Origin: Monosiga brevicollis MX1
Taxonomy: Eukaryota > Opisthokonta > Choanoflagellata > Craspedida > Salpingoecidae
NCBI RefSeq assembly: GCF_000002865.3
Contig: NW_001865052.1
Coordinates: 292,407 to 325,115 of the forward strand
DNA: 32,709 nucleotides
Reading direction: 5' to 3'
Part shown: positions 22,362 through 27,967 of the stretch, piece after piece
Numbering within the stretch: the first letter of the stretch is position 1
Layout of the letters: each line of letters begins with the position of its first letter
The notes under the pieces: generated by a model
Databases searched by the model: none
Seen by the model: only the letters and a program-made list of their open reading frames with translations
What the model was told of the DNA's origin: nothing
Program-made: the position numbers and the translations under genes

Positions 22362-25300
22362 ATGTCGCCTACAATCATCTTGATTGTGTCCGTTGTGGGC
22401 GGTGTGGCCTTCCTGGTGGCATGCGCCGTCACCTGGTACTGGTTGCACATGCGCAAAATGACCCGAGCTTGGAAGGGGGAGGACGAGCATGACGAGGAAG
22501 CGCGCACGAACAAGGTCAAGAAGAAGGCCAGTAAAAAGCCGCAAAAAAACCCACCGTCCGCCGAGGTAGCAACGNNNNNNNNNNNNNNNNNNNNNNNNNN
22601 NNNNNNNNNNNNNNNNNNNNNNNNNNNNNNNNNNNNNNNNNNNNNNNNNNNNNNNNNNNNNNNNNNNNNNNNNNNNNNNNNNNNNNNNNNNNNNNNNNNN
22701 NNNNNNNNNCCCCCCCCCCCCCCCCCCCCCCCCCCCCCCCGCGCGCCCCTCTTCCTCCTCTTGGGCCACTCACTCACCATCATGTGCCTCTACGCTCTCA
22801 ACGCTCACAGTCCGACCGTCTGGTCTTCCCCAAAGTGGGAGGAAAGCGGCCCCCAAGCCCGTTTGGAAAAAGTCGAGGACGGGGCTGCTTCACCCATGCC
22901 AGGGTTTGCCACCGCTGATCTCGATGCCAACGACCCCAAAGAGTTTGAGTTTGATTCGGTTGCTTTGCCCGACCAGGAGCGCACGGTTTGTTCATCCCTG
23001 TCGGGGCTCCACCCATTGCTATGCTCGTCATGTTGCTCCCAATGACGGGCCGTTCATATCCTGGTTTGGCACGACAATTTTTTTTTTTTTTTTTTTTCCC
23101 GCTGGCCCCTGACTTTGGCCAACGGGTTCAATCTTGCAGGTCTTTCGCAATCCACTCTTTGGGCTCGATGATGAAGAAGACAGTGGGGACGACGCGAGTG
23201 GCAAAGAAGATGCCGAGACAGCAGCCACGGGAGTTTCAGCTTCTGGTCAGTACTTGGCCCCGGCTGTTCCTTTCCTGGCTTGGCTCGCCTGCTCTGACCA
23301 CCCGCCGCTGACCGTTGTCGACACCTTGCCGGGAATGCAGAAGCCGTGCCGGGCCTTGTGCCTTCGAGTGGGATCAACACCAACGCACCGGCCGACTATC
23401 CCAAGGGCGAGCTCTACCCTGGCTTTGACATTTATCGGTGCAAAGTGACAAATCCCACTTGGGGTATCCCTGATCTCAGCTATCAACCACCCTTCTTCAC
23501 GGCTCCGGTTGTCTTGGCCCAACCGGATTGGGCTGACCCGCCTCTGACCAAATACACCAAGCTTTCTTATAACCGTCTTGACACGCAAACTGATCCTCCA
23601 GTGGATCGCATCTCCAGCACTGGTCTCTACAAGGTCATTGACAATTGCCCGCGTAACCCCCGCGGCCGCCAGGGTCTCCGTGGTCGCGGCGTGCTTGGCC
23701 GCTGGGGTCCAAATCATGCCTCAGACCCCGTGGTCACTCGGTTCGTATCTAAAATCTGTATTCCGTTGCTGCACGCCGCTCAATCTTTCCACTGCGTTTA
23801 TTTCAGGGCCGCTCACACTCGTGCCCTTGCCTCGTCCAGCTGGGCGTTTACGCCTGAGGGGGATGCTGTGTACCGCAACGGGCGGCGCGTGGCCGAATTT
23901 GTGGCCATTCGGCGTGAGGACAATGGCAAACTTGCTTTTCCGGGCGGCTTCGTGGCCGCAGGCGAAAAGGTGCCCCAGGCTCTTCGTCGTGAATTCGGCG
24001 AGGAGGTCTTGGCTACCATGGATCTAACATCGGAGGAGCGTGCAGCTGTTGAGCAAGCCGTCGATACCGTCTTTGATCACGGGGTTGAGGTACGGACCAT
24101 GACGAGCGTAGGCAGTGAGAGAAAAGTGACGTTCAGGTCCAGGCCTCTCGCCCTGTTTCATGTTTCACTCACGTTTGTTTTTCTTTGGGGTGACAGATCT
24201 ATGCCGGTTATGTTGAGGACGACCGCAACACGGACAACTCGTGGATTGAGTCAACCGTGCATCTCTTTCATGATGAGGAGGGAGAGGCCTTGGGAAGCTT
24301 TTCCCTCAACGGTCAAGGGGCTGCTGCAGCGCACTGGACTATGATCACCGATGACTTTGACATGCACGCGAGCCACAAGGATTGGCTCAAGCTTGTGGCT
24401 CGCAAGCTGGACTGCTTTTGGTCTGACCAAGATGAGCTTAAACCCGTGTCTGTCCCCTTGTCGGACGCCAACCCGGTTGGTATATCGCCAGTGGTTGCAC
24501 TGCATGTTTGACAGTGAGTTTGCTGTCGCTACCGTGCTCATGAACACTCACGGGCGTGCACTGCGTCTCTGTACAGATTACCAACCTGACCTACGTCCCA
24601 CCCGATCCGGAGCGACCAGGCACCGCGCAGCAACAAGAAGAAGATACCGCGCTGGTTTCGGCAATACCAGAAAAAACATCGGTCATGGTGGCCATGCAAC
24701 AGGCTCGGGCACACGCATCTGATGATGAGCTGAGTTTGCGCACGCCCAGTCGTCCGGCCTCAGCCTTGCCACCGGTTTCTGAGACAACTGGTCGATTTCC
24801 CGAGGTGTGTGTGTGCGTGTGTGCGTGTGTGCGTGCACCTTCACCACCACAACTCGTGGTAACAGGCATTCTCTTCCACTCACATATTCCGTTGATTTTT
24901 GCAATCAGAAGGAAACGGGCTTTGGTCAGTCAGCTCCGAGCTCGACGCACAAATCCAATGCCCCGCGCTTTGATGCGGACCGTGCTGTCCCCGTCGGTTT
25001 CCCCACCACGGAAGGTCGTCTCAATGAAGCGGCAACGCCTGATGCACTTGAAGAAGACGCGGAGGAATCTGGTGTTGAGGATCCCATGGTTGAGGTTTGT
25101 TGAGCTAGCATGGCTGACGATGGCTGACGGTGGCTGTCAGTGGCTGTCTAAAGGCTGTCTAACGGCTGTCTCACGGCTGTCTAACGGCTGTCTAACGGCC
25201 GTTCTGATTTGGCTCTAGATCTTGACACGGTATCGGAACATTGTCAACGCAATCAAAAGTCGTGGTTCAGCCACGGACGGCGTCGTTGAATTTGCTGCCA

Positions 25301-27967: not shown

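Follow-up and report, generated by a model that had tools for sequence, protein, structure and literature searches.

Analysis of a 32,709-nucleotide stretch of the Monosiga brevicollis MX1 genome (the window; C43:292407-325115 of the 39.5-Mb assembly of 57 contigs that was searched) revealed a predicted + strand gene at positions 22362-27967 that contains, in order, a transmembrane exon, a NUDT9 domain, a PTB domain, and a tyrosine kinase (TK). The predicted protein has the order (membrane anchor) - FxNPxF linker - NUDT9 - linker - PTB - tyrosine kinase, and the reading that we favor, with a probability of about 0.55, is that the kinase responds to ADP-ribose through its NUDT9 domain. The modules are each known, and the principle of an enzyme joined to an effector is known from TRPM2; the NUDT9-PTB-TK architecture itself may be new. 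No fusion of NUDT9 or another Nudix domain to a tyrosine kinase was found in the literature search made here, although the tables of Manning 2008 or Pincus 2008 may still hold a mention.

The initial annotation of this locus had proposed a single exon chain in which a transmembrane helix is followed by NUDT9, PTB, and tyrosine kinase domains, with both the Nudix box and the kinase intact. All these components were detected in the claimed order, and the spliced frame was indeed free of stops with agreeing phases after the assembly gap: it is open over 1051 residues from exon 2 to the TAG at 27965-27967 and is interrupted by 16 introns. The proposed exon chain was retained overall, except for the acceptor of exon 5, which was moved from 23807 to 23840. 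The resulting gene model comprises the following features:

22362-22574, + strand: exon 1, with the ATG, a single transmembrane helix IILIVSVVGGVAFLVACAV, and then a basic, probably cytosolic stretch; its 3' end lies in or before the gap
22575-22709, no strand: assembly gap of 135 N, probably within intron 1
22811-22985, + strand: exon 2, linker, from the spliced model, codon score +0.26
23140-23245, + strand: exon 3, linker with FRNPLF at 23143-23160
23341-23740, + strand: exon 4, N-terminal half of the NUDT9 domain, which starts at about 23412
23840-24089, + strand: exon 5 (start corrected), with the Nudix box GFVAAGEKVPQALRREFGEE at 23946-24005
24197-24475, + strand: exon 6, C-terminal part of NUDT9 to about 24436 and a short tail, followed by the donor GTTGGT at 24476
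24476-24576, + strand: intron at the NUDT9/PTB-TK junction, 101 nucleotides (nt), phase 0, with an in-frame TGA at 24509-24511 inside
24577-24804, + strand: exon 7, linker, with the first in-frame ATG at 24685 and coding-like sequence upstream of it
24909-25094, + strand: exon 8, linker, from the spliced model, codon score +0.22
25219-25329, 25498-25669, 25742-25892, and 25999-26068, + strand: exons 9-12, PTB domain (Pfam PID, E value 2.4e-16) and its C-terminal tail
26152-26280, 26405-26509, 26797-27002, 27146-27192, 27303-27619, and 27743-27967, + strand: exons 13-18, tyrosine kinase, C-terminal tail, and the TAG at 27965-27967

The start of exon 5 at 23807 was rejected, as it would add 11 residues that are seen in none of the 8 other aligned NUDT9-type domains. 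The start at 23840 removes this insertion, and the exon then reads VVTRWAFTPEG, matching the arginine-tryptophan pair that the relatives have at the same place.

The first enzyme of the chain is predicted to be a complete ADP-ribose pyrophosphatase of the NUDT9 type with an intact catalytic box. In a phmmer search against PDB, it matched human NUDT9 (1q33) with an E value of 2.6e-64, TRPM2 of N. vectensis with 1.5e-64, and the TRPM2 chanzyme of S. rosetta with 7.3e-44, the alignment spanning residues 17-300 of the query and 11-286 of the human NUDT9 chain; the E value of the Pfam NUDIX model was only 6.8e-7. The two-part architecture of NUDT9 is present, i.e., an N-terminal part with GR.G..GRG.LG.WGPNHA.DP and a C-terminal Nudix fold. 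The full form of the Nudix motif is G-x5-E-x7-R-E-U-x-E-E, and the canonical motif is found in exon 5. Its core, REFGEE, is identical to the box given for mitochondrial NUDT9 in a report that lists REUXEE as the Nudix consensus (PMC6461439). Human NUDT9, a mitochondrial ADP-ribose pyrophosphatase, shares both domain halves and the REFGEE box with the window protein (44% identity over 268 positions), but it is not part of a multidomain signaling protein, whereas the window domain is joined to a PTB domain and a kinase and probably to a membrane anchor. The TRPM2 proteins of S. rosetta and N. vectensis (39% and 45% identity, respectively) likewise combine a NUDT9-type domain and an intact Nudix box with a membrane signaling partner; however, their effector is a channel and their NUDT9-H domain is C-terminal, whereas in the window protein the effector is a PTB-tyrosine kinase and NUDT9 precedes it. 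Pfam found no channel domain in exons 2-9, and exon 1 provides a single helix; the pore and TRP helix of the TRPM2 chanzyme were not found there. The channel-kinases TRPM6 and TRPM7 likewise unite an enzyme and a signaling partner (PMC11479946), but in them a channel is combined with a Ser/Thr (alpha) kinase, and a tyrosine kinase is absent. A tree of nine NUDT9 domains was poorly resolved and grouped firmly only the three choanoflagellate channel domains (96/100).

The PTB domain was recognized by Pfam (PTB/PID, PF00640) over residues 28-146 of the fragment scanned, and the kinase by PK_Tyr_Ser-Thr with an E value of 1.1e-72. The kinase motifs VAVK, HRDIAARN, and GDFG are intact, and the activation segment ends with KYMAIE. 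In a tree of 17 rows, which covers a part of the kinases of this genome (L045, L051, L052, rows that were too short, and rows without a readable glycine loop were omitted), the window kinase is sister to five PTB-tyrosine kinases bearing HMD (L022, L023, L024, L025, and L046) with a support of 98/98; the window kinase keeps HRD at this position. The HMTK family is defined by replacement of His-Arg with His-Met in the catalytic loop (PMC3082566). Thus, the window kinase shares its kinase-domain descent with that group in the 17-row tree, whereas the HM motif is absent from it. HMTK1 of M. brevicollis also has PTB before the tyrosine kinase, but it has three PTB domains (PMC3082566), compared with one in the window protein, which also keeps HRD where the five related kinases have HMD and carries the additional NUDT9 domain and predicted anchor. 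No NUDT9 domain or anchor was seen in the upstream open reading frames (ORFs) of four HMD kinases (C40, C44, C24, and C56), which were inspected by eye without a Pfam scan. As a side observation, a PTB-tyrosine kinase locus on C27 contains exact matches to both sets of HMTK1 primer bases that were searched (18 of the 5' and 31 of the 3' primer; PMC3082566), with a spacing of about 1.5 kb, which identifies the genome as that of M. brevicollis or a near-identical strain. The 5' primer bases also match exactly at C42:500702-500719.

Ligands of PTB domains have the form phi-x-N-P-x-Y/F, which is fitted by FRNPLF in the exon 3 linker. In a control set of other ORFs of this genome, each at least 400 codons long and together comprising 15,672 residues, the form did not occur. 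FRNPLF may be bound by the PTB domain of the same protein or by another one. NPLF is also present in a shorter ORF on C40, beside an HMD PTB-kinase (5531-6079 of the joined stretch).

The NUDT9 domain and the PTB-tyrosine kinase are strongly indicated to be one predicted polypeptide. Their junction depends on the donor at 24476, since the TGA at 24509-24511 would terminate a NUDT9-only product unless it is spliced out. To score this donor, we trained a model on 30 donors, of which paralogues supplied 20 and the window gene supplied 10, so that the gene itself contributed part of the training set. The paralogue donors came from a spliced aligner: 7 of 11 introns of NUDT9 paralogues were kept (three of L014 and one of L016 were dropped as badly anchored), together with the 13 introns of kinase paralogues that passed the length and flank limits. 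The donor at 26069 and those of the linkers were excluded, and two of the 30 donors in the training set have much lower scores than the others and are possibly misplaced. In this model G occupies position +5 in 89% and T occupies position +6 in 70% of cases (pseudocounts included), and donors of the form GTTNGT are used within conserved domains of the window gene itself, at 23741, 25670, and 27003. GTTGGT at 24476 scores 2.74 bits, which is the best value among 14 GTs in 24430-24560; in leave-one-out scoring, 19 training donors were higher and 11 lower. Of the 2081 GTs in the window, 3.46% reach this score, and nine GTs lie between the last NUDT9-homologous position and the stop, so that an equally good donor in phase would arise by chance in roughly 0.1 of cases. 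By itself, the donor is thus modest evidence for the junction. It is nevertheless ordinary for this genome and within the training range, and the junction has stronger backing than the initial annotation, which called this donor the weak point, had expected.

Codon composition provides the second line of evidence. The coding score contrasts 15,672 codons, taken from 20 long ORFs, with introns of the window and intergenic DNA, and each of exons 1-9 is positive in the model frame (0.15 to 0.26 bits per codon; for exon 5, computed with the old start). In the spliced frame, the 36 codons of exon 7 that precede its first ATG (24577-24684) score +9.1 bits, a value reached by 352 of 753 true coding chunks, and a 37-codon version (+8.9 bits) was matched by none of 104 noncoding chunks. 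When separate noncoding sets were used for training and test, the exon 7 score was reached by 0/212 chunks in one split and 1/38 in the other (0/53 and 1/10 for stop-free chunks). The segment 24476-24508, between the donor and the stop, scores -3.1 bits; values as low occurred in 35 of 1411 coding chunks and in 110 of 255 stop-free noncoding chunks. The composition overall fits coding sequence that breaks off at the proposed donor and continues from the proposed acceptor.

Several observations weigh against this joining or mark weak places of the model. GTATAT at 24480, which has a different phase, scores 2.03, close to the 2.74 of the chosen donor. GTGAGT follows directly after the in-frame stop, at 24514, and makes a NUDT9-only transcript conceivable. 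The exon 7 score is reached by 40 of 1359 stop-free wrong-frame chunks and, in the one split mentioned, by 1/38 intron chunks (1/10 of the stop-free ones). At about 24602-24652, a frame other than that of the model scores higher in 33-nt windows, which are noisy, and after the ATG exon 7 has only +0.05 bits per codon. Further downstream, the donor at 26069 (GTACCA, after exons 9-12) is uncertain. As a true donor, GTGAGT at 24514 was disfavored, with a score of -0.48 and an exon that would contain a stop; the low score arises because A at position -1 is present in none of the 30 training donors.

These data bear on three other gene structures. The locus could instead hold a NUDT9 gene that ends at 24509-24511 and, next to it, a separate gene for a cytosolic PTB-TK that starts from the ATG at 24685, as suggested by the in-frame stop close behind the NUDT9 domain, the GTGAGT, and the ATG itself. 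We regard this as improbable, since the 36 codons before the ATG are coding-like while 24476-24508 is not, GTGAGT scores poorly, and the contiguous frame of exon 7, which has an upstream stop at 24541, contains no ATG from there to 24685. The 3' end of one gene and the promoter of the other would also have to fit into the 65 nt between the stop and exon 7. A weaker point is that the + strand has no AATAAA or ATTAAA between exon 1 and 28176, where the first one lies, 209 nt past the stop codon of the gene; this absence counts little because the hexamer is about as frequent in the window as chance predicts (11 found against 10.2) and is missing from the + strand over 9210-28175 as well. Somewhat less improbable, although still unlikely, is one gene with two products, where removal of the intron 24476-24576 gives NUDT9-PTB-TK and its retention gives NUDT9 alone. 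The intronic stop lies shortly past the domain end, and retention would leave a complete NUDT9, but most introns this long should contain an in-frame stop anyway. An assembly error joining NUDT9 to the kinase is very improbable: the gap at 22575-22709 shows that the assembly has breaks here, but no run of N separates NUDT9 and the kinase in the window, the reading frame is continuous through the joint, and the exon 7 linker and the anchor exon match the genome only at themselves.

The predicted membrane anchor probably belongs to the same protein as well, its link being drawn across the gap. In exon 1, the hydrophobic helix begins 4 residues after the first Met and is followed by basic residues, the best 19-residue hydropathy is 2.92, and the ATG frame is without stops and scores +0.22 bits per codon. 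If exon 1 belongs to the protein, nearly no extracellular part would be left, unlike the ligand-binding part of receptor tyrosine kinases. The assignment is weakened by the 135 N and a run of C that separate exon 1 from exon 2, and by GTAGCA directly before the gap, which has the wrong phase for an exon 2 start at 22811; the donor of intron 1 may lie inside the gap, or the acceptor of exon 2 may be a different one.

For the fused protein we propose the following scheme: (i) ADP-ribose produced by oxidative or NAD-consuming stress would bind to the NUDT9 domain and alter the output of the kinase, (ii) hydrolysis of ADP-ribose by the same domain would end the signal and thereby act as a built-in timer, and (iii) the PTB domain would position the kinase on NPxY/F tails, possibly on the FRNPLF of the protein itself. 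The products of NUDT9 hydrolysis are AMP and ribose-5-phosphate. The sensor model is drawn from the action that ADP-ribose is held to have on NUDT9-H in TRPM2 of jawed vertebrates, and binding of ADP-ribose alone to NUDT9H seems enough to open TRPM2 (PMC13143021). If the kinase does respond to ADP-ribose, breakdown of NAD+ or oxidative stress would be linked directly to phosphotyrosine signaling within one protein, in a sister group of animals.

An alternative is that the protein is one polypeptide whose kinase is not gated. The anchor and the PTB domain would then bring an ADP-ribose-destroying enzyme to tyrosine-phosphorylated complexes as a local sink, e.g., beside TRPM2-like channels, and the kinase may tune NUDT9 by phosphorylation. 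Such a role agrees with the presence of two TRPM2-like genes in the genome and with the Nudix box, which is fully canonical here and lost in the copies of the GAP and PDZ proteins described below, as if hydrolysis had been selectively kept. According to PMC6461439, the NUDT9-H domains of TRPM2 from N. vectensis and S. rosetta are active ADP-ribosases. In the N. vectensis channel, catalysis is uncoupled from gating, so that its disruption left the currents unchanged, which speaks against the timer; deletion or mutation of NUDT9-H sensitized the currents to H2O2, which is sink-like behavior and likewise counts against the timer (PMC6461439). On the other hand, the channels of both species unite an active NUDT9-H and an ADP-ribose-dependent effector in one protein, and no part of the window protein rules out coupling. 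As the N. vectensis results favor a sink at least as much as a sensor, we lowered the probability of the sensor from 0.60 to 0.55 and raised that of the sink from a little over a quarter to just under a third; ADP-ribose sensitivity of the kinase remains the preferred reading.

The initial annotation had compared this gene with TRPM2, where a NUDT9-like domain is joined to a membrane signaling protein. The comparison is apt and can be widened, since other NUDT9-type domains of the genome form part of channels, of a RasGAP/RhoGAP/SH2 protein, and of a PDZ protein. A search with the NUDT9 domain identified five further places besides the window, and at least 6 NUDT9-type domains are present in total: the window copy, one that is apparently stand-alone, two in TRPM2-like channels, and two in ORFs with GAP or PDZ domains. 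The apparently stand-alone copy (C31:502375) has the box KEFGEE and no partner within the 3.3 kb examined. The copies on C26 (L013) and C39 (L014) resemble the C-termini of TRPM2-like channels, and their upstream segments match the S. rosetta TRPM2 chanzyme with E values of 2.1e-19 and 2.7e-13, respectively; C26 has the Nudix box RELIEE, and the box of C39 is ruined, unlike the boxes of invertebrate TRPM2, which are reported as canonical (PMC6461439). These two loci, seen here in their C-terminal parts, suggest at least two TRPM genes in M. brevicollis, for which only one TRPM representative has been reported (PMC7555694).

The two remaining copies reside in unbroken ORFs. On C51, the 1246-codon ORF L053:3671-7408 (C51:1217270-1221007) combines RasGAP (5.3e-17), NUDT9 (3.9e-34 with human NUDT9 from PDB), RhoGAP (1.5e-33), and a weak SH2 match (4.1e-5), in this order. 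On C43, at 859333, the 1359-codon ORF L054:3263-7339 (C43:858262-862338) has PDZ domains flanking a NUDT9 domain (7.5e-35) whose two parts are separated by an insertion. Both fusions are free of splice prediction because their domains share single open frames, and together with the two TRPM2-like channels they provide an in-genome precedent for NUDT9 in signaling proteins. The Nudix box has been lost in both copies. Protein tyrosine phosphatase and further RasGAP stretches upstream of the first ORF (L053:1060-3667) may belong to the same gene, and further PDZ ORFs are present upstream of the second. No second NUDT9-kinase pair was seen among the 12 NUDT9 and 91 kinase matches listed, with 84 of 277 candidates scored. 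A candidate Nudix fusion at C51:1280355, in a frame of 2446 amino acids, was rejected since most of that frame consists of a run of N.

Thus, NUDT9 recurs in five signaling genes of this genome, including the window gene, and looks like a reusable ADP-ribose module. As a signaling domain it has been known from TRPM/TRPS channels, and here it is also present in kinase, GTPase-activator, and scaffold proteins. The ruined catalytic boxes of the GAP and PDZ copies recall human TRPM2, and catalysis may have been lost several times while the domain was retained. More tentatively, ADP-ribose could be a second messenger of choanoflagellates that is read via a portable NUDT9 module, active in the PTB-TK, present as NUDT9-H in the TRPM2-like channels, and kept as a dead domain serving as a pure receptor in the RasGAP-RhoGAP-SH2 and multi-PDZ proteins; animal TRPM2 would then be the one survivor of a wider ADP-ribose signaling network. 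We consider this broader scenario possible, with the odds against it.

Relatives of the NUDT9 domain were also collected from 5 viral and 34 genome contigs, and ORFs of at least 480 codons were present in 16 of these 39. Pfam found no kinase domain on 14 of the 16 contigs with such ORFs (L075 and L085 were not included). Two viral ORFs of more than 1300 codons (L060:3673-8244 and L061:3539-7603) combine a NUDT9-type Nudix domain with an ADP-ribosyltransferase exoenzyme domain and the VG15 family, and in L062 and L064, also viral, the Nudix domain is found in open frames of more than 2100 codons. On the bacterial contigs (L080:2424-3908, L084:5815-7371, and L095:1-5382), NUDT9-type Nudix domains occur with a cytidylyltransferase-like domain or with NAD synthase, the frame with NAD synthase being open at both contig ends; these partners point to NAD metabolism. 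In the window itself, the next + strand gene (28799-30126), read by eye only, is histidine phosphatase-like, with VRHAQ and an acidic tail.

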